A stretch of 64,000 nt of DNA from Vannielia litorea (GTDB lineage Bacteria > Pseudomonadota > Alphaproteobacteria > Rhodobacterales > Rhodobacteraceae): NCBI RefSeq assembly GCF_900142295.1, contig NZ_FSRL01000001.1, positions 186,001 through 250,000 of the forward strand, written 5' to 3'. The notes beneath the pieces were generated by a model. That model did no database searches. It was not told the origin of the DNA and saw only the letters and a program-made list of their open reading frames with translations. Below, piece by piece: positions 43,674-52,995 of the stretch; positions within the stretch are counted from its first letter, which is position 1; each line of letters opens with the position of its first letter. Made by a program: the position numbers and the translations under genes.

Positions 43674-44834
43674 TCAGGGGGTTCGGCGCGCGAGCCAGTC
43701 GAGGGTGGCCGAGAGCGCCGGCGGGCCCAGCACCTCGAACACCACGGTGGCGGCGATGGTCACGGTGAGCACGGGGCCGGCGAACTCCGGCAGGGTTTCG
43801 GCCGCCACCAGCGCCATGCCCACCGCCACCCCGGCTTGCGGCATCAGTGACGGCCCGTAGGCGTGGCGCTCGGGCGCGGGCACCCCGGAGAGCGCGGCGC
43901 CGAGTTCGCCCGCGAGGATCCGGGCGAGCACACGCAGGCCGAGATAGCCGAGGCCGACCCAGCCCAGAGTGACCAGAACGCCGAGGTCGAAGGAGGCCCC
44001 GGCCAGCAGGAAGAACAGCAGCATGAAGGGCCATTCGATGTGTTCGATCTCGTGGAAGGCGCGGTCGTGGTGGCGGGCGACATTGGCGATGATCGCCCCG
44101 GCGGTCATTCCGGCGACGAGGTAGGAGACCTCGAGCCAGAGCGCGACTCCGGCGGTGAGCATTACGATGCCGAGCGCCTCGGCCTGAAGCGGCTCGCCCG
44201 GCTTGAGGCGCCCGGTCAGCAGCGCGGCGGGCAGGCCCACGGCAAGGCCGAGCAGCACCGCTCCACCGATCTCGACCCCTGCCGCCGCCAGCGCGCTGAC
44301 AGAGCCGCCGTCATGGCCCACCAGCGCGAGGCAGGCGCTGAACACCATGATGCCCCAGACATCGTCGATGGCGACGATGCCGCTGATGGTTTCGGTGAAG
44401 CCGGTCTTCACGCCCTTCTCCCGGAACACCTCGGCAATCGCCGCCGGGTCGGTTGCGGTGGCGATGGCGCCGAGCAGCAGGGCGAGGCGCGGGTCTACCC
44501 CGAGCGCGGTGAGGCCGGCCCAGGTGACGATCACGGTGAGGAGGGTGACGGTGAGCGAGATCACCAGGATCGGCCTGCCGTGGCGCCGCAGGTTCTCGCC
44601 GGTCAGCTCGCCGCCCAGAAGGAAGGCCACCATGGTGAGCGCCACCACCGAGACCAGCTCGAACCAGCCCGCCGCCTCCGCAGGCAGCAGCCGCAGGCCC
44701 GACTGGCCCACGGCGATGCCTAGCAGCAGGAGCATGGTCACGCGCGGCAGGCGGGTGAAGCGCCCGAGCGTATCGGCCAGCAGCCCGGCGAGAAAGAGCA
44801 CGCCGAGCGTGATGAGAAAGCTTTCGTGTTCCAC
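43674..44834 (-). CDS. Cation/proton antiporter (CPA family)
   Basis: 386 residues from a GTG at 44834, with about twelve membrane segments. TATDPAAIAEVFREKGVKTG and IVAIDDVWGIMVF are the conserved transport-site segments of Na+/H+ and K+/H+ antiporters, including acidic residues in membrane helices. It lies 18 bases after the pentaheme cytochrome gene on the same strand. Next to a sodium-pumping NQR, a role in sodium cycling is attractive but inferred. Confidence 0.88.
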   Translation of the reverse strand: MEHESFLITLGVLFLAGLLADTLGRFTRLPRVTMLLLLGIAVGQSGLRLLPAEAAGWFELVSVVALTMVAFLLGGELTGENLRRHGRPILVISLTVTLLTVIVTWAGLTALGVDPRLALLLGAIATATDPAAIAEVFREKGVKTGFTETISGIVAIDDVWGIMVFSACLALVGHDGGSVSALAAAGVEIGGAVLLGLAVGLPAALLTGRLKPGEPLQAEALGIVMLTAGVALWLEVSYLVAGMTAGAIIANVARHHDRAFHEIEHIEWPFMLLFFLLAGASFDLGVLVTLGWVGLGYLGLRVLARILAGELGAALSGVPAPERHAYGPSLMPQAGVAVGMALVAAETLPEFAGPVLTVTIAATVVFEVLGPPALSATLDWLARRTP

Positions 44835-44852
44835 GCCCGCGGCGTCTCCCGG

Positions 44853-46025
44853 TCAGCGCAGAAGGCCGAGCTCGTCCATGTCCACCCCCAGCGGGCCGGA
44901 GAGCGCCTCGATCGAATCGTGCAGCAGCTCCAGCGCGTAGGCCGGGTTGTGGGCAAAGTTGCCGGGATCGGAGGTGACCAGCTTCCAGTTGTAGGCGGCC
45001 TTCAGCATTCGCGGCGACCAGGCGTTGTAGGCGATGGCCTTGCCTTCGGCCTCGTCGATCGCCCCGTCGCCATTGGCGTCGGCGAAGAAGTAGGGGTAGC
45101 GGTGGCCCTCGTAGAGGATCGGCACGCCGATCACCGTGGCGGCGTAGTCGCGGACCATGTCGAGCAGAAGCGCGGCGTTGGCGTCGATATCGGCCTTGAT
45201 GCCCTTGGAGGTGTCGCCGCTGCCGTCATAGCTTTGCCGCGAGATCCGGATCGCCTCGGGCGCATCGCCCTGGTGGCAGGTCAGGCAGGGCTCGAAGGCC
45301 ACCTCCAGCGTGTGCGGCTCGTGGCAGGAGTTGCAGGTCGAGACCGGGCGGGCGTGGAAGAACCGGCCGGAGTAGGCCTTGCCTTCGAAGTGAAAGCCCG
45401 CGCCGCCATAGCCGCCCAGCCAAGTGGCCCCGGCGGTGGCGTAATGCGGGTTGATGAAGGAAAGGTCCGGGTTGGGGGCATCCTCTTCGAGCCCGGTCAC
45501 CTTGGCGGCCACGGTGCTGCCCGCGGTGCGGCCCTGGTGGCAGGTCAGGCAGGCCGCCTCAACGCCCTGCACCGGGTGCATCAGCCCGGAGGGAAAGGCC
45601 ACCGCCTCGATCTCCGCAAGCCCGGCGTTGTGGCAGGTGCCGCAATCGACCACGCCGCCGGTGGGCACCGGCGTGGCGGGCAGCCCCGGCGCGCTGCCGT
45701 CGAGCCCGTGGAAGGCCCGAAAGCCCTCGCCCGCGTGGCAGACGGCGCAGACCGGCGCGATCTCCTCCTCCTCGTCCCAATGCCGGAACGCTTCTGCCGC
45801 CTGGTCGGCATGGGCCGAGCGATACCAGTTTGCGATCGCCTCGTTGTTGGCGATGTTGATCTGTTCGGGGTGGAACGGCCCCGACTTCGGCAGGACGTAG
45901 GGCACCTCTGCCTCCTCGGCGGGCTCGGTGCCGCTCTGGGTCGCGCCGGGCGCGACGGCAAGCGTGACGAAGCCGGCGACCATGAAGGAAAGAAGGACAA
46001 GGTAGGAAATGACGTTGCTGCGCAT
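44853..46025 (-). CDS. Periplasmic pentaheme c-type cytochrome with EF-hand-like loop
   Basis: 390 residues: an N-terminal signal or anchor (residues 7-26), then five CxxCH motifs at residues 93-97, 128-132, 159-163, 231-235 and 247-251, and an EF-hand-like DANGDGAIDEAE loop near 316. The C-terminal third has no heme motif. It must act outside the inner membrane. I do not recognise a named family. Its place, divergent from nqrA with a shared 111-base gap, suggests electron transfer linked to the NQR complex. Confidence 0.88.
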   Translation of the reverse strand: MRSNVISYLVLLSFMVAGFVTLAVAPGATQSGTEPAEEAEVPYVLPKSGPFHPEQINIANNEAIANWYRSAHADQAAEAFRHWDEEEEIAPVCAVCHAGEGFRAFHGLDGSAPGLPATPVPTGGVVDCGTCHNAGLAEIEAVAFPSGLMHPVQGVEAACLTCHQGRTAGSTVAAKVTGLEEDAPNPDLSFINPHYATAGATWLGGYGGAGFHFEGKAYSGRFFHARPVSTCNSCHEPHTLEVAFEPCLTCHQGDAPEAIRISRQSYDGSGDTSKGIKADIDANAALLLDMVRDYAATVIGVPILYEGHRYPYFFADANGDGAIDEAEGKAIAYNAWSPRMLKAAYNWKLVTSDPGNFAHNPAYALELLHDSIEALSGPLGVDMDELGLLR

Positions 46026-46136
46026 GGCTGCGTGGCTCCTTGCTTTGCGCGCGTCGTTTCCCTGAGAAAAACCATAGACACCCGGAGCGAATTGCGAAAG
46101 GTTCGTTTGCGCGCGACATGTGAAACTGGATGATCC
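46026..46136. promoter_or_regulatory. Divergent region between the pentaheme cytochrome and nqrA, with a direct repeat
   Basis: TTTGCGCGCG occurs twice (46044-46053 and 46106-46115), one copy near each gene start. It could be a binding site controlling both units; no FNR box is evident. Confidence 0.4.
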
Positions 46137-47402
46137 ATGCCCAACCTTGCGTCCTCCGCAGGGCTTATGCCGCGCTTTTCATCACCTCCCCGCTCCGGGT
46201 CCGAGGTGCCGGAGGAGATCACCGAAGAGGCCGGCGTGACCGGGCCGGAGGGGCCGGCGCTGCGAATCGTGCCGCTGGTCGAGGAGGGCGCGGTGGTGGC
46301 CCAGGGCGCGCCGCTTGCGCATCTGCGCGACCAGGAGGGCCTCTGCCTTGTCGCGCCGATGGCCGGGCGGGTGGCGCGGCTGCGGCTGCTGCCCGGGCGG
46401 CGGCTTTCGGAGATCGTGCTCTTCCGCGAGCCGGGGGGCGACCGGCACCGGCATGAGGCCAAGGGTGCCGAGGCCGACCCGCGCGGGCTGATGCAGCACG
46501 CCGGTCTCTGGCCGCTGCTGCGCCGCCGGCCCTTCGGGGGCATGCCCCCGCCCGGCGAGCGCCCCGCCGCGATCGTGGTGATGGCGGCCGACAGCCGGCC
46601 GCTCGCGCCCGATCCGCGGAGTGCGCTGGAGGGGCGCGAAGAGGCCTTCGGGCGCGGTCTGGCAGCACTCGCCGGTCTGACCGACGGGCCGGTGCATGTG
46701 GTGGCTGGCGCGGGGCCTGCGCTCCTCGAGCCCGGCCTTGCCGGCGGGCGGGTGCAGGCGGCACGCTGCGGTACGCGCCATCCGCAGGGGCTGGCCGGCT
46801 GGCAGGTGCATGGCCTTGCCCCGGCCCGTATCGAGGCCCCGGTCTGGGACATTCATGCCGAGGACGTGGCGACGCTGGGCGCCCTGCTGGAGACGGGGCT
46901 GGTGCCCGAAACCCGGCTCGTGCATGTCGCCGGGCCGGAGTTGCGCGAGAGCCGCCTGCTTTACACCCAGCCGGGGGCCGACCTGCGCGGCCTGACCCAC
47001 CGCATCGCCCTGCCGGGCGGCCATGCGCTGCTTTCGGGCTCGCCGCTCTGCGGGCGTCCGGCGCATTGGCTCGGCGCGCGCGACCGGCAGGTGAGCGTGA
47101 TGCCGCGCGAGGCCGGGCCCGCGCCTGTCCACTGGCTTCGCGCGGCGCTGACCCGCTCGGCCACGCCGCCGCCGGTGATCCCGACCGCCGCGCTCGACCA
47201 GGCCTTCGCCGGGGCTCTGCCGGCGGCTGCCCTGATCCGCGCCCTGACGGCGGGCGACGAGGACACCGCGATCGGGCTTGGCCTGCTCTCGCTGCTGGAG
47301 GAAGACCTTGCCCTGGCCGACTACATTCTCGGCGGCACCGCCCGGCTGCGCGCACTGCTGCGCGCCATGCTCGACCGGATCGAGACGGAGCGCGCCGCAT
47401 GA
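46137..47402 (+). CDS. nqrA: Na+-translocating NADH:quinone oxidoreductase subunit A, divergent
   Basis: 421 residues; NqrA is normally about 446. Identity is by operon position and by the barrel-sandwich start (LAHLRDQEGLCLVAPMAGRV) and VHVAGPELRESRLLYTQPGA segments of NqrA. It is a soluble cytoplasmic subunit at the quinone site. The first 35 residues are poorly conserved, and an ATG ten codons in is an alternative start. There are no ferredoxin-type CxxC clusters, which excludes RnfC. Stop overlaps nqrB by ATGA. Confidence 0.85.
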   Translation: MPNLASSAGLMPRFSSPPRSGSEVPEEITEEAGVTGPEGPALRIVPLVEEGAVVAQGAPLAHLRDQEGLCLVAPMAGRVARLRLLPGRRLSEIVLFREPGGDRHRHEAKGAEADPRGLMQHAGLWPLLRRRPFGGMPPPGERPAAIVVMAADSRPLAPDPRSALEGREEAFGRGLAALAGLTDGPVHVVAGAGPALLEPGLAGGRVQAARCGTRHPQGLAGWQVHGLAPARIEAPVWDIHAEDVATLGALLETGLVPETRLVHVAGPELRESRLLYTQPGADLRGLTHRIALPGGHALLSGSPLCGRPAHWLGARDRQVSVMPREAGPAPVHWLRAALTRSATPPPVIPTAALDQAFAGALPAAALIRALTAGDEDTAIGLGLLSLLEEDLALADYILGGTARLRALLRAMLDRIETERAA

Positions 47403-48181
47403 GCCGGGGGCTGTGGGACAGGGAGACGGTTGCCCTGCTGCTGATCGCGGCCTGCCTGCCGCTGGCGGTGATCTGGCTTGGCTACGGCGGCACCGGGGCG
47501 GCGCTGCGGCTGGTTTCGGTGGGTCTGGTGCTCGCGGGCTGGCAGCTGGTGTTCCTCCTGGCCCGCGCCCAGCCGCCCTCGCTGGCCGCCGCCGTCACCG
47601 CTCTGGCCATCGCCATGCTGGCGCCCGAGGAGCTGGGCCCCCTCCGCATGGTGCTGGGCGTCAGCTTCGGCGTGGTGATGGGAGAGCTGGTGTTCGGTGG
47701 CTGGGGGCGCAACGTGGTGCATCCGGCGACGGTGGCGCTGGCCTTCCTGGGCTTCGGCTTTCCCGGCGTGGGCTGGCCCGAGATCCTGCTGCCGGTGGCC
47801 TGGGCCGCGATTCCGGCGGCCGCCCTCGGCATCGCGCTGGGCGTGATGCACTGGCCCGTCATCGCCGGTGCCGTACTGACCGGCGCCGTCACCACCCAGC
47901 TCGGCCACGTCCCCGCCGCGACACTTCCGGCGGCTGCGGTGGCGCTGGTGCTGCTCGTGGCCGACCCGGTGACCAGCGCCACCACGCCGCTCGGGCGCTG
48001 GCTCAACGGCGGGCTCTACGCGCTGATGCTCACCCTCTTCGCCAGCCATTGGGCGGGGGCGGCGCCGGTGCAGATCGCGGTGTCGGCGGCGCTCTTCGCG
48101 GCGCTCGCCGCCCCCTTGCTCGACGAAGCCGCCATCGCGCTCTGGCGCGCAAGGAGAAGGAGACGGCATGGCCAGCCCTGA
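47399..48181 (+). CDS. nqrB: NQR subunit B, short form lacking the FMN-attachment segment
   Basis: 260 residues against about 410 for typical NqrB. GVSFGVVMGELVFGGWGRN (87-105) and HPATVALAFLGFGFP align with the conserved core, and ADPVTSATTPLGRWLNGGLY with the last third. The N-terminal extension and the stretch with the [ST]GAT flavinylation motif, which should come soon after FGFP, are missing. The protein therefore cannot carry the usual covalent FMN at that site. The membrane core is intact with no frameshift. It overlaps nqrC by 14 bases. Confidence 0.88.
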   Translation: MSRGLWDRETVALLLIAACLPLAVIWLGYGGTGAALRLVSVGLVLAGWQLVFLLARAQPPSLAAAVTALAIAMLAPEELGPLRMVLGVSFGVVMGELVFGGWGRNVVHPATVALAFLGFGFPGVGWPEILLPVAWAAIPAAALGIALGVMHWPVIAGAVLTGAVTTQLGHVPAATLPAAAVALVLLVADPVTSATTPLGRWLNGGLYALMLTLFASHWAGAAPVQIAVSAALFAALAAPLLDEAAIALWRARRRRRHGQP

Positions 48182-48962
48182 CCGAAACCCCTGGCGGCGC
48201 TTTCTGGCCCTGCCCAACACCAGCCGCACCAAGACGCTGGTGGTGGCCTTCCTGGTCTCGGCGATCTGCGCTGTCCTAGTGAGCGGGGCGACCGTGCTGC
48301 TGCGCCCGATCAAGGCGGCCAACCGCGCCGCCGAGGAGCAGGCCCGCATCGCCGCGCTGGTGCGGGGCGTGCCGGGCATGGCGGAGCTGCTGGAGCGCGC
48401 GGGCGGCACCCTGTCGACCGTGGTGATCGACCTCGACACCGGCCGCGCCGCCACCGGGGTCACCCCCGACACGCTGGAGGCCACCCTGGCCGATGCCGCC
48501 AACTGGACGGCGCTGGAGACGGGCGAGGACGTGGCCGGCATCGGCCACCGCCCGGATTTTGCGCAGATCTACCTGCTGCGCGAGGGCGAGACCGTCTCGC
48601 TGGTGCTGCTGCCGGTGGCCGGGCAGGGGTACAACGGGCAGATCGAGGCGATCCTTGCGCTGCGGGGCGACATGAACACCATCGCCGGGATCGCGGTGAC
48701 CGGCCACGCCGAGACTCCCGGCCTCGGTGCGCGGATCGAGGAACCGGCCTGGCAGGCGGGCTGGCCCGGCAAGCTCTTGCGCGACGAGGCCGGCACGCTG
48801 CGCTTTGCCGTGGCGCGCGGTTCGGCCACCAGCATCCACGAGGTCGACGGCATCACCGGCGCGACCCGCACCAGCACCGCGATGACCCGGATGGTGCGCT
48901 TCTGGCTCGGGCCCAGGGGCTACGGCCCGCTGGTCGAGGCGATCCGGCGCGGGGAGTTCTGA
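48168..48962 (+). CDS. nqrC: NQR subunit C, FMN-binding
   Basis: 264 residues: one N-terminal membrane helix (about 23-45) and a periplasmic FMN-binding domain. The flavinylation motif DGITGATRTS is intact, with T233 the expected FMN-bearing threonine. The flavin transferase ApbE needed for this is not in the window. Confidence 0.92.
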   Translation: MASPDRNPWRRFLALPNTSRTKTLVVAFLVSAICAVLVSGATVLLRPIKAANRAAEEQARIAALVRGVPGMAELLERAGGTLSTVVIDLDTGRAATGVTPDTLEATLADAANWTALETGEDVAGIGHRPDFAQIYLLREGETVSLVLLPVAGQGYNGQIEAILALRGDMNTIAGIAVTGHAETPGLGARIEEPAWQAGWPGKLLRDEAGTLRFAVARGSATSIHEVDGITGATRTSTAMTRMVRFWLGPRGYGPLVEAIRRGEF

Positions 48963-48965
48963 GCC

Positions 48966-49631
48966 ATGGCCGCCCGGTTCGACATCTGGTCCACCCTGAC
49001 CGCGCCGCTGGTGCAGCAGAACCCGGTGACCCTGCAGATCCTCGGGATCTGCTCGGCCCTGGCCGTCACCACCTCGCTCGCCACGGCGCTCACCATGGCC
49101 GCCTCGCTGACCGTGGTGCTGACCCTCTCGGCGGGGATCATCAGCGGGATCCGGCGGCACATCCCCGACACGATCCGGCTGATCGTGCAGATCATCATCA
49201 TCGCCTCGCTGGTCATCGTGATCGACCAGGTGCTGCAGGCCTGGTTCGCCGAGATCAGCCGGGCGCTCTCGGTCTTCGTGGGGCTCATCACCACCAACTG
49301 CCTCGTGCTGGGCCGGACCGAGGCCTTTGCCCGCCACAACCCGCCCCTTCCGGCGATGGTGGATGCCTTCGGAAACGGGCTGGGATACTCGCTGGTGCTT
49401 CTCGTCATCGGCGCGGCGCGCGAACTCTTCGGCAAGGGCGAGCTGATGGGGTGGCAGGTCTTTGCGCTGGCCGAGAACGGCGGCTGGTTCACCCCGCTCA
49501 GCCTGATGCTGCTGCCGCCTGCCGCCTTCTTCCTGCTCGGGCTGCTGGTCTGGGCGATCCGCACGGTGCAGCCCGAACAGGCGGAGGCGCCCGACCATGT
49601 CGCGCCGCTCGCGGGAGAGCCTGCGGAATGA
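48966..49631 (+). CDS. nqrD: NQR subunit D
   Basis: 221 residues, six membrane helices. QNPVTLQILGICSALAVTTS near the start and GLITTNCLVLGRTEAFA, with the Cys that helps hold the membrane iron centre, are conserved. Its stop overlaps nqrE by ATGA. Confidence 0.93.
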   Translation: MAARFDIWSTLTAPLVQQNPVTLQILGICSALAVTTSLATALTMAASLTVVLTLSAGIISGIRRHIPDTIRLIVQIIIIASLVIVIDQVLQAWFAEISRALSVFVGLITTNCLVLGRTEAFARHNPPLPAMVDAFGNGLGYSLVLLVIGAARELFGKGELMGWQVFALAENGGWFTPLSLMLLPPAAFFLLGLLVWAIRTVQPEQAEAPDHVAPLAGEPAE

Positions 49632-50242
49632 GCGAGCTGTGGTCTCTCTTTCTCTCCGCGGCCTTCGTCGACAACATGCCGCTCGCGCTCTTTCTCGGGC
49701 TCTGCACCTTTCTCGCCCTGTCGAAACGGCCCGAAAGCGCCATCGGCCTCGGCGTGGCGATCACCGGGGTGATGGGGGTGACGGTGCCGCTGAACCAGCT
49801 CATCTACAGCCTGCTGCTGGCCCCCGGGGCCTGGGCCTGGGCCGGGCTGCCGGAGCTCGATCCCTCCTACCTCGCGCTCATCGCCTTCATCGGGGTCATC
49901 GCGGCCACGGTGCAGTTTCTCGAGATGCTGCTCGACCGGTTCTTTCCGGCGATCCACGCGGCCTTTGGCGTCTTCCTGCCGCTGCTGACGGTGCAATGTG
50001 CGATCCTTGCGGGCAGCCTCTTCATGGTGGAGCGCAGCTTCACCCTGCCCGAGGCGGCGTTCTTCGGGCTGGGCAGCGGCGCGGGCTTTGCGGTGGCGGT
50101 GGTGATGCTCAGCGCGGTACGGGCGCGGCTTGCCTATGCCGACCTGCCCGCCGGGTTGCGGGGCTTGGGCATCACCTTCGTGCTGGCCGGGCTGATGTCG
50201 CTCGGCTTTGCCGCCTTCGCGCAGATGGTGGCCGCGCAATGA
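49628..50242 (+). CDS. nqrE: NQR subunit E
   Basis: 204 residues, six membrane helices; paralogue of NqrD in inverted topology. FVDNMPLALFLGLCTFLALS and LPLLTVQCAILAGSLFM carry the two iron-ligand-region cysteines. Overlaps nqrD and nqrF by 4 bases each. Confidence 0.93.
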   Translation: MSELWSLFLSAAFVDNMPLALFLGLCTFLALSKRPESAIGLGVAITGVMGVTVPLNQLIYSLLLAPGAWAWAGLPELDPSYLALIAFIGVIAATVQFLEMLLDRFFPAIHAAFGVFLPLLTVQCAILAGSLFMVERSFTLPEAAFFGLGSGAGFAVAVVMLSAVRARLAYADLPAGLRGLGITFVLAGLMSLGFAAFAQMVAAQ

Positions 50243-51462
50243 CCGAGATCGCGCTGGCCAGCCTGACCATCGTGCTGCTCGTCACAGGGCTGGCCCTCGG
50301 TCTGCTGGCGGCGCGGCGGCGGCTGATCCCGGAGGGCGGGGTGGAGGTGGTGGTGAACGGCGCCACCCGCCTGCACGCGGCGCGGGGCGCCCGGCTGCTG
50401 GCCGTGCTGCATGACGGGGGCATCCGTATTCCGGCGGCCTGCGGCGGCTCGGGCACCTGCGGGCTCTGCCGGGTGAAGGTGGAGGGCGCGGGCGCGGGCG
50501 AGGCGCAGGCCACCGAGCGCGGGGTGCTCTCGCCCCGCGAGCGGCGCAACCACCTGCGGCTGGCCTGCCAATGCAGCCTGCGCGGCGACTGCACCGTGGA
50601 GGTGCCCGACGACATCCTCTCCGCCGGCGGCGGGTTTACCTGCCGCGTCGCCTCCACCACCATGCTCGCCCCGCTCATCCGCGAGATCGCGCTGGAGCTG
50701 CCCGAGGGGCATGACACCGGCTTTCGCGCGGGCGACTTCATGCAGCTGACCGCGCCGCCCTACAGGATCGACTTCACCGACCTGGAGCTGCCCGAGCCGT
50801 TTCGCCCGGCCTGGGAGAGCGCCGGGTGGCGGCAGCTGGAGGCGCGCTCCGATGCGCCGGTCACCCGCGCCTACTCGCTCGCAACCCGGCCCGAGGATCG
50901 GGGCAAGGCGGTGTTCGACATCCGCCTTGCCGTGCCCCCGGCAGGCCGCGAGGGCGAGGTGCCCCCCGGTCGGGTCTCCTCCTGGCTCTTTTCGTTACAG
51001 CCCGGCGACGAGGTGCAGGCCTCCGGCCCCTTCGGCGACTTCCACGTCCAGCCCGGCGGGCGCGACATGGTCTTTGTCGGCGGTGGGGTGGGCATGGCGC
51101 CGCTGCGCGCGATGATCCACCAGCAGCTCGGGCAGGGCACCACGCGGCGGATGTTCTACTTCTACGGCGCCCGCAGCGCCGCCGACCTGTTCTACAGCGC
51201 GGAGTTCGACGCGCTGGACGCGGCGCATGACAATTTCAGCTGGACGCCCGCGCTGTCGGACCCGGCGCCGGGCGACCGATGGACCGGGGCCACCGGCTTC
51301 ATCCACAATACCCTCTGGGACGCGATGCGCCGCCACCCGGCGCCGGAGGAGTGCGAATTCTACCTCTGCGGCCCGCCGGTGATGATCTCGGCGGTGCTGG
51401 CCACGCTGGAGCGGCTGGGCGTGGAGCCCGGCGCGATCTACCACGATGACTTCGGAGTCTGA
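50239..51462 (+). CDS. nqrF: NQR subunit F, NADH-oxidising flavoprotein
   Basis: 407 residues, full length. An N-terminal helix is followed by a 2Fe-2S domain with C68, C74, C77 and C110 (AACGGSGTCGLC ... RLACQC), the FAD motif RAYSLATRPED, the NADH motif VGGGVGMAPLRAM and CGPPVMIS. It passes electrons from NADH through FAD and 2Fe-2S into the membrane subunits. Confidence 0.95.
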   Translation: MTEIALASLTIVLLVTGLALGLLAARRRLIPEGGVEVVVNGATRLHAARGARLLAVLHDGGIRIPAACGGSGTCGLCRVKVEGAGAGEAQATERGVLSPRERRNHLRLACQCSLRGDCTVEVPDDILSAGGGFTCRVASTTMLAPLIREIALELPEGHDTGFRAGDFMQLTAPPYRIDFTDLELPEPFRPAWESAGWRQLEARSDAPVTRAYSLATRPEDRGKAVFDIRLAVPPAGREGEVPPGRVSSWLFSLQPGDEVQASGPFGDFHVQPGGRDMVFVGGGVGMAPLRAMIHQQLGQGTTRRMFYFYGARSAADLFYSAEFDALDAAHDNFSWTPALSDPAPGDRWTGATGFIHNTLWDAMRRHPAPEECEFYLCGPPVMISAVLATLERLGVEPGAIYHDDFGV

Positions 51463-51512
51463 GCGATGCGACATGGAGTGACACGACTGGACCTCGGAAA
51501 AGCGGGGCGGCC

Positions 51513-51680
51513 ATGACCGAGGTGCTCCTTGCCATCGTCATCACGACCCTCGCCGCGGCGGGCATGGCGCTTGGGCTGATGCTGGGGCGCGGCCCGGCCA
51601 GGACGAGTTGCGGCGCCAGCGAATGTCTGCCCCGGGGCCGCTGCGACGAGTGCCCGATGCGCCGGCGGGAGGCAGGCTGA
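51513..51680 (+). CDS. nqrM: NQR maturation protein NqrM
   Basis: 55 residues: one membrane helix (TEVLLAIVITTLAAAGMALG) and then a cysteine-rich tail, TSCGASECLPRGRCDECPMR. This fits NqrM (DUF539), which helps insert the iron of NqrD/NqrE. It follows nqrF by 50 bases, and its stop overlaps the next start (TGATG). Its presence argues that the iron centre between NqrD and NqrE is still made. Confidence 0.88.
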   Translation: MTEVLLAIVITTLAAAGMALGLMLGRGPARTSCGASECLPRGRCDECPMRRREAG

Positions 51681-52072
51681 TGGCGCAGTTTCCCGTGGCC
51701 TCGATCCTGCGCGCCGATGGCCCGACGCTCACGGCACCCATGCCGATCCGGCAGGCGGTGGCGCTGCTGGTGGAGGCCCGCGCCGCTGCCGCGCCGGTGC
51801 TGCGCGACGACGGCAAGCTGGCCGGCATCCTGAGCCAGAAGGACTGCTTCGGCCCCGCGCTCCACGCCAGCTACCACCAGGAGTGGGCGGGCCGGGTGGC
51901 CGACTACATGTCGGAGCGCGTGGTCACCCTCGATGCGGGGGATGACGTGGTGCGGGCCGCCGAGATGTTTCTGGCGCATCCGCATCGGGTGTTTCCGGTG
52001 CTGGAGGAGGGGCGGCTTGCGGGCATGCTCTACCGCTCCGACGTGCTGGCGCTGCTGGCGCGGATCGGATGA
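51680..52072 (+). CDS. CBS-domain pair protein
   Basis: 130 residues from ATG 51680 made of two CBS repeats (GKLAGILSQKDCF and GRLAGMLYRSDVL are the paired signatures). Such proteins bind adenosine nucleotides and sense energy state. Coupled by overlap to nqrM, it may modulate the complex; the function is not known. Confidence 0.85.
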   Translation: MAQFPVASILRADGPTLTAPMPIRQAVALLVEARAAAAPVLRDDGKLAGILSQKDCFGPALHASYHQEWAGRVADYMSERVVTLDAGDDVVRAAEMFLAHPHRVFPVLEEGRLAGMLYRSDVLALLARIG

Positions 52073-52170: not shown

Positions 52171-52995
52171 ATGCCGATAAAGTCGATCCTGATTGCCTCC
52201 GATCTCTCGGAGCGTTCCGACCGTGCGATCAAGCGCGGCCTGATGCTGGCCCGGAGCCTCGGCGCCGAGGCGACGCTGGGCTGCATCGTGGATGACGACA
52301 TGCCCGAGGACATGGTGTCCGAGCGGGTGGAGCGCAGCGAGGCTCACCTCGAGGCGTCGATGAAGGAGCTTGGCGGGGGCCTGAGCTGCCAGGTGGCCGT
52401 GAGGGTCGGCGAGCCGGTGTCGCGGCTGGTCTCCCTGGTCAACGGAAAGCACCACGACCTCGTGGTGGTCGGCCGGCACCGCACGCGCGAGATGTTCGAC
52501 GGCCTGCGGCGCACCACGGTCGAGAGCGTGGTCTCCCAGTCGTTGAAGCCGGTGTTGCTGGTTGCCGGGCCGGTGCACGGTCCTTACGAGCGGGTGCTGG
52601 CGCCGGTGGCCTTTTCGATGGCTTGCCGGAGCGCCGTTGCCCTGGCGCGGGAGGTCGCGCCGGGGGCCGGGGAGCGTGTGTTTCATGCCTGGATGGCACC
52701 CTTCGAGGGCCTGTCGCGGGGCGGAGACGACGGGCTGAAGAAGGCGGTGGAGCGGGAGATCCGGGAGCAGGCGCGCACCTGGGCCGCGGGCCTCGATCCG
52801 GCGCCGGAGGTAAAGCTGCGCCACGGCGGTGTGACGCCCCGGCTGGAGGCGGAGCTGCGGGCCTTCGTACCCGACCTGCTGGCGGTGGGGGCGAACACGC
52901 GGGCGCTGTCCTTCACCGGGGTCGGGGCCTTTACCTCGGAGCTGATCCGCCACCCGCCGACCGACCTGCTGATCAGCCGCGCGACCACGCCCTGA
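52171..52995 (+). CDS. Universal stress protein, tandem UspA domains
   Basis: 274 residues with two UspA folds. The first (residues 1-142) has SILIASDLSERSDRAIKRGL and DLVVVGRHRTREMFDGLRRT; the second (about 149-270) is more divergent with VLAPVAFSMACRSAVALARE and DLLAVGANTRALSFTGVGAF. It lies 98 bases after the CBS gene and probably ends the nqr unit. Confidence 0.9.
   Translation: MPIKSILIASDLSERSDRAIKRGLMLARSLGAEATLGCIVDDDMPEDMVSERVERSEAHLEASMKELGGGLSCQVAVRVGEPVSRLVSLVNGKHHDLVVVGRHRTREMFDGLRRTTVESVVSQSLKPVLLVAGPVHGPYERVLAPVAFSMACRSAVALAREVAPGAGERVFHAWMAPFEGLSRGGDDGLKKAVEREIREQARTWAAGLDPAPEVKLRHGGVTPRLEAELRAFVPDLLAVGANTRALSFTGVGAFTSELIRHPPTDLLISRATTP

Follow-up and report, generated by a model that had tools for sequence, protein, structure and literature searches.

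A six-subunit NQR with a truncated NqrB, linked to a divergent pentaheme cytochrome: a possible periplasmic outlet for NADH electrons

The window analysed here is a stretch of 64,000 nucleotides from Vannielia litorea (positions 186001-250000 on contig 1; genome size, 4.1 Mb). Its region 43674-48181 contains an antiporter gene and a gene for a pentaheme c-type cytochrome, both on the minus strand, followed on the plus strand by nqrA and a short nqrB. The latter two open an operon of six genes, nqrA to nqrF (46137-51462), of the type that encodes the Na+-translocating NADH:quinone reductase (NQR). A sequence-only reading of this DNA had described a multiheme cytochrome adjoining a divergent nqr operon, and this is confirmed: the two lie 111 bp apart and the cytochrome has five CXXCH motifs (Table 1). 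The nearest named relatives of the locus are in the Rhodobacterales. A pattern search of the 111-bp region found no FNR, CRP or NNR consensus, and the same search in the divergent regions of 64 loci gave sites in 0, 0 or 1 of 64.

The subunits are those of an NQR, not RnfB or RnfC, as NqrF scores 400 bits over its NCBIfam cut-off and NqrA contains an NQRA_2nd domain. NqrD and NqrE are also above their cut-offs, NqrC is just under (136.9 vs 144), and NqrA and NqrB are far under. The cofactor residues of NqrC, NqrD, NqrE and NqrF are retained. The 2Fe-2S cysteines of NqrF, Cys29 and Cys112 of NqrD, and Cys26 and Cys124 of NqrE are each kept in 72/72 rows (the window and 71 loci), and the flavinylation motif [ST]GA[ST] is present in 71 of 72 NqrC sequences (2 of 74 were excluded as shorter than 200 residues); the remaining one has AGAT, which is found in many canonical NqrC too.

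NqrB is different. The block around Thr236 that carries the covalent flavin mononucleotide (FMN) is absent from 65/65 short NqrB and present in 21/21 canonical ones in our alignment, from which 10 of 75 short sequences had been excluded for a length outside 220-330 residues (contig-cut or over-extended). Rows of 273-275 residues may be among those aligned and read on beyond a stop codon, but every site counted here lies before it. The short NqrB also lacks the N-terminal quinone/inhibitor site (approximately residues 1-54; PMC10643135, PMC9325719), and the predicted model begins at Vibrio cholerae residue 48 (the sequences used for it came from the window and from 31 loci in a list of 51; L080, with an internal stop codon, and L084 were dropped). 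Asp346 is kept in 63/65 short NqrB, the canonical relatives having Glu at this position in 21/21. The only Pfam domain in the window NqrB is PF03116; there is no NAD-binding domain. The short NqrB is supported as a shared derived feature of the cytochrome-linked NQR.

Table 1. Features at the cytochrome/NQR locus of the window (window coordinates)
Feature	Position	Strand	Details
CPA-type Na+/H+ (cation/proton) antiporter, Na_H_Exchanger, behind cytochrome	43674..44834	-	Pfam E 4.8e-40
Pentaheme c-type cytochrome, 390 aa, predicted periplasmic	44853..46025	-	five CXXCH, signal-like N-terminal helix
Divergent intergenic region cytochrome/nqrA, 111 bp	46026..46136	no strand	
nqrA, divergent	46137..47402	+	TIGR01936 194.8 bits vs cut-off 321
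Short nqrB, 260 aa	47399..48181	+	NqrB fold kept; quinone-site N-terminal stretch and SGAT loop absent; His at N203
nqrC, periplasmic FMN subunit	48168..48962	+	TGAT flavinylation motif
nqrD	48966..49631	+	two conserved Cys of membrane 2Fe-2S cluster
nqrE	49628..50242	+	two conserved Cys of membrane 2Fe-2S cluster
nqrF, NADH/FAD/2Fe-2S subunit	50239..51462	+	above NCBIfam cut-off
nqrM-like small protein, 55 aa	51513..51680	+	hydrophobic N-terminus, Cys cluster; assigned by position and similarity to L033 small gene
Two-CBS-domain protein, conserved 3' end of cassette	51680..52072	+	
Universal stress protein, behind CBS gene	52171..52995	+	

The sequence-only reading would have been refuted by a lack of conserved linkage, but the linkage between the cytochrome and the short-NqrB NQR is strongly conserved in other genomes. 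The sample comprised 295 genomes, each representing one genus of the family; 46 of them have the cytochrome, 77 have NqrE-like genes and 75 have NqrB-like genes. The NqrB fall into two classes: short, giving a full-length match (36 loci), and canonical, about 400 residues long (42 loci, classed by split, weak matches, 21 of them confirmed by alignment). A cytochrome gene lies on the same contig at a distance of up to 10 kb in 31 of the 36 short loci (one of them decayed) and in none of the 42 canonical loci (Fisher p 7e-17, loci taken as independent; the contig assignments behind these counts were read by hand from the search results). Counted per genome, the cytochrome accompanies the short NqrB in 32 of 36. 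Genomes G159, G245, G012, G036 and G108 hold the five short loci that no cytochrome adjoins; the G159 locus is split across contigs, and its nqrA is next to the cytochrome. In the stretches fetched around canonical loci, no open reading frame of at least 80 residues had two or more CXXCH motifs (0/21 loci). In a FastTree phylogeny of NqrD, NqrE and NqrF (91 rows, midpoint-rooted), the short-type NQR forms one clade with a support of 0.82. The cytochrome and the NQR co-diverge.

The extent of the cassette was determined from 78 loci: 64 picked from genome contigs by their cytochrome (L031-L094) and 14 from the family sample (L172-L180, having both; L181-L184, without cytochrome; and L189, broken). 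This set tests the rest of the cassette and not the cytochrome linkage. The cytochrome and nqrA are both present in 73/78 loci and divergent in 72. The sole non-divergent locus, L189, is decayed: cytochrome, nqrA, nqrC and nqrF are broken, and the cytochrome is oriented like nqrA. The CBS gene is found in 72/78 loci, which is every one of the 72 that reach nqrF. In 62 of these 72 relatives an apbE gene lies between nqrF and the CBS gene, the other 10 giving no match. An nqrM-like gene is present in 39/78 loci and directly follows nqrF in the window. The window protein has no Pfam or NCBIfam match; its counterpart in L177 does have one, to Pfam NqrM with E 0.0065, which falls short of the cut-off.

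Not everything that had been proposed from the sequence alone belongs to the module. Its account of the cytochrome/NQR link and the short NqrB stands, as does its inclusion of the CBS gene. The antiporter and the universal stress gene, which it had counted as further parts, occur in 28/78 and 2/78 loci, respectively. The four plasmid loci described below match neither of them, and we rule them out as obligatory components; the antiporter looks like an optional neighbour.

Five plasmid records matched the cytochrome, and all but H5 (47% identity) were examined. In these four, which come from Pseudooceanicola, Nitratireductor, Paracoccus and Shinella and represent three families, the cassette has the order cytochrome, nqrABCDEF, apbE and CBS gene, with a small gene annotated between apbE and the CBS gene in three. 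Shinella sp. HZN7 and Paracoccus seriniphilus are culturable and have the cassette on a plasmid. On the Nitratireductor plasmid pOM-1, the cassette apbE is annotated as two adjoining pieces (L228:3549-4525). The plasmid flanks have no DNA in common with each other; one of them weakly matches the window flank, and TRAP transporter genes occur in both. The short NqrB gave no match in two genomes of the same genus. These findings make the cassette look like a mobile, self-contained unit. Wider samples found the short NqrB in 2/385 genomes of the class (E 1e-15) and 4/398 of the phylum (E 1e-13), all of them already in the family sample. Outside the family, it occurs in loci titled Rhizobiales (L068, L069, L073) and Granulosicoccus (L061, a metagenome assembly) and on the plasmids.

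The cytochrome itself has weak Pfam matches to class III/c7 cytochromes. In an alignment of 49 sequences picked from the many homologues found, there are exactly five invariant histidines in addition to those of the five CXXCH motifs, a pattern that suggests six-coordinate ligation of all hemes. The nearest predicted fold is that of NrfA; a plain Foldseek search with the model gave no match at E <= 0.001, and the sole match in a sequence search of solved structures was a polyphenol oxidase (E 0.48). NrfA has a CXXCK lysine, Tyr216 and His264 as catalytic residues (His264 and Gln263 are named in structure entry titles). In the aligned cytochromes CXXCH replaces the lysine motif, an invariant Arg occupies the position of Tyr216, and the His264 column contains His or Gln. 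Lacking the CXXCK active-site heme and the Tyr/His catalytic residues, the cytochrome can be ruled out as an NrfA nitrite reductase.

The same cytochrome family has a second conserved pairing. In 12 of 16 non-NQR loci (L098, L185, L187, L188, L190, L212, L213, L215 and L217-L220), a pentaheme cytochrome with 38-45% identity is divergent to a gene for an MsrQ-like flavocytochrome b, for which NAD(P)H has been proposed as cytosolic donor (PMC8238504). Homologues with two halves in one protein are found in Chloroflexi, Anaerolineae, Trueperaceae and Phycisphaerae (L095-L097, L099-L110); they contain 10 CXXCH motifs in 14/15 loci and nine in L105, which is at a contig end. Genes for b561 and NapC/NirT-like proteins accompany the homologue in L096, and a NapC/NirT-like gene that in L108. 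In L181:143-1510, a tetraheme cytochrome c3 gene beside broken FAD_binding_2 (fumarate-reductase-like) pieces is divergent from a basal short-NqrB nqr operon.

In the path we propose, NADH would be oxidised at NqrF (flavin adenine dinucleotide and 2Fe-2S), and electrons would pass from the NqrF 2Fe-2S cluster via the NqrD/E 2Fe-2S cluster to the FMN that NqrC holds covalently on the periplasmic side. The path up to NqrC follows from established NQR biochemistry and the kept residues. Beyond it, the NqrC FMN would reduce the soluble periplasmic pentaheme cytochrome and no electrons would return through NqrB to quinone; the NqrB membrane core would be kept, possibly as an ion path or scaffold, after loss of the loop for covalent FMN and of the N-terminal quinone site. 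The sequence-only reading had suggested NqrC, with its periplasmic flavin, as electron partner of the cytochrome, and our results support it as the natural one. We infer the electron path beyond NqrC, its outward direction and ion pumping. We assign a probability of roughly 0.6 to the reading of this operon as a divergent NQR that releases its electrons at the periplasmic face, via the NqrC FMN to the pentaheme cytochrome, instead of returning them to quinone. The fuller proposal is a sodium-coupled, six-subunit NADH:cytochrome c oxidoreductase in which electrons skip quinone and complex III, encoded by a transferable cassette; the return half of the NQR path would have been cut, and the NqrC flavin would discharge into a dedicated pentaheme cytochrome. 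It is more tentative, and we would put it at slightly less than even odds. Our preference for outward flow comes from the pairing of this cytochrome family with MsrQ-like NAD(P)H flavocytochromes and from the broken fumarate-reductase-like pieces by the tetraheme cytochrome of L181. The Vannielia litorea genome also holds a canonical NQR elsewhere and complex I, represented by NuoA, so a further enzyme passing NADH electrons to quinone would be redundant there.

Several points weigh against an outlet through the pentaheme cytochrome. Both NQR types occur together in only 3/36 genomes, so the redundancy argument holds for few, and analogy is the sole argument for an outward direction. The riboflavin residues are partly kept in short NqrB (identity with Vibrio cholerae at Thr162 in 50/65, Asn200 in 56/65 and Asn203 in 43/65), so that NqrB may still carry a flavin. 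The window cassette gave no match to apbE (51462-51513, between nqrF and the nqrM-like gene), and a search of the genome with a single query located one ApbE gene, next to the canonical NQR; flavinylation of NqrC must therefore rely on an ApbE from elsewhere. Of the 46 genomes with the cytochrome, 14 lack a short NqrB, and the cytochrome family is thus not exclusive to NQR. Conversely, four of the 36 short-NqrB genomes have no match to the pentaheme cytochrome. The tetraheme cytochrome c3 of L181 (G012) stands instead at the same place, divergent from nqrA, as does an EB_dh haem protein in L183 (G108). No heme gene is next to nqrA in L182 (G036), and the sequence of L184 (G245) stops at nqrB, with no cytochrome match elsewhere in the genome. 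In the tree, these four are among the basal branches of the short-type clade, and NqrB truncation therefore probably preceded the pentaheme cytochrome; other periplasmic heme proteins may fill its role.

Electrons might also flow in the opposite direction, from a periplasmic donor through the pentaheme cytochrome to NqrC, with NAD+ reduction in lithotrophic or mixotrophic growth driven by a sodium gradient, which the antiporter would sustain in loci that have one. We consider this unlikely, but it is the strongest of the alternatives. The related RNF has been described as running backwards at the expense of the gradient (PMC12174285), and soxA is present in 29/36 genomes with the module and 154/259 others (p 0.017, uncorrected, one gene, hand-read). 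The latter signal is weak, soxA being common in the family (183/295), and we do not use it as evidence; the MsrQ-like partner of the same cytochrome family and the fumarate-reductase-like pieces in L181, which point to reductases, argue for outward flow. Less probable still is that the short NQR remains an NADH:quinone reductase, using the riboflavin or another site, and that the cytochrome is independent and merely shares the promoter region. The partly conserved riboflavin residues would fit, as would L181, L182 and L183, which have no pentaheme cytochrome though their sequence reaches past nqrA. However, the quinone-binding N-terminus and the FMN loop are gone, the cytochrome is linked to the NQR, co-diverges with it and travels with it on plasmids of three bacterial families, and in two of these three loci the position divergent from nqrA is taken by a different heme protein. 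A terminal periplasmic reductase of NrfA/OcwA type, fed by the NQR and acting on a metal, oxyanion or peroxide, is very improbable given the replacements of the NrfA lysine, Tyr216 and His264, the five spare histidines and the failure of plain Foldseek to find a match.

If the proposed outlet through NqrC is correct, NADH electrons enter the periplasm without the quinone pool in a family in which 36 of 295 sampled genera have carriers. In a published model of NQR, sodium release is tied to the reduced FMN of NqrB (PMC10643135). The short-NqrB NQR would be a natural test of this model: if it still pumps, the NqrB FMN is not needed.

Our searches of open-licence PMC literature gave no earlier description of an NQR that has all six subunits, a truncated NqrB and a periplasmic cytochrome of its own. 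The system shares with the Vibrio cholerae-type Na+-NQR the order of the six subunits, the cofactor residues of NqrC, NqrD, NqrE and NqrF, the NqrB fold and, in many relatives, apbE and the nqrM-like gene; it differs in the losses from NqrB and in the divergent periplasmic cytochrome and CBS gene. With NrfA, the cytochrome has in common five c hemes, collinear motifs and perhaps a similar predicted fold, but it lacks equivalents of the CXXCK lysine, Tyr216 and His264 and has the extra invariant histidines. The closest precedents are found elsewhere. In two-subunit Nqr/Rnf-like complexes, an NqrB/RnfD-like protein likewise lacks the flavinylation Thr, and one-way transfer from NAD(P)H to extracytosolic acceptors has been proposed (PMC8238504, PMC11334425); their NqrB carries a fused NAD-binding domain, whereas here six subunits and a linked cytochrome are present. 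In Methanosarcina acetivorans, the heptaheme cytochrome MmcA is encoded in the rnf operon and moves RNF electrons outward (PMC11024163). The likeness is one of analogy, an ion-pump core with a multiheme c-type cytochrome on its outer side (PMC11024163, PMC12174285): MmcA is kin to octaheme tetrathionate reductases and is the first gene of an archaeal RNF operon using ferredoxin, while the alphaproteobacterial system described here combines an NADH-dependent NQR with a pentaheme cytochrome nearest to NrfA.
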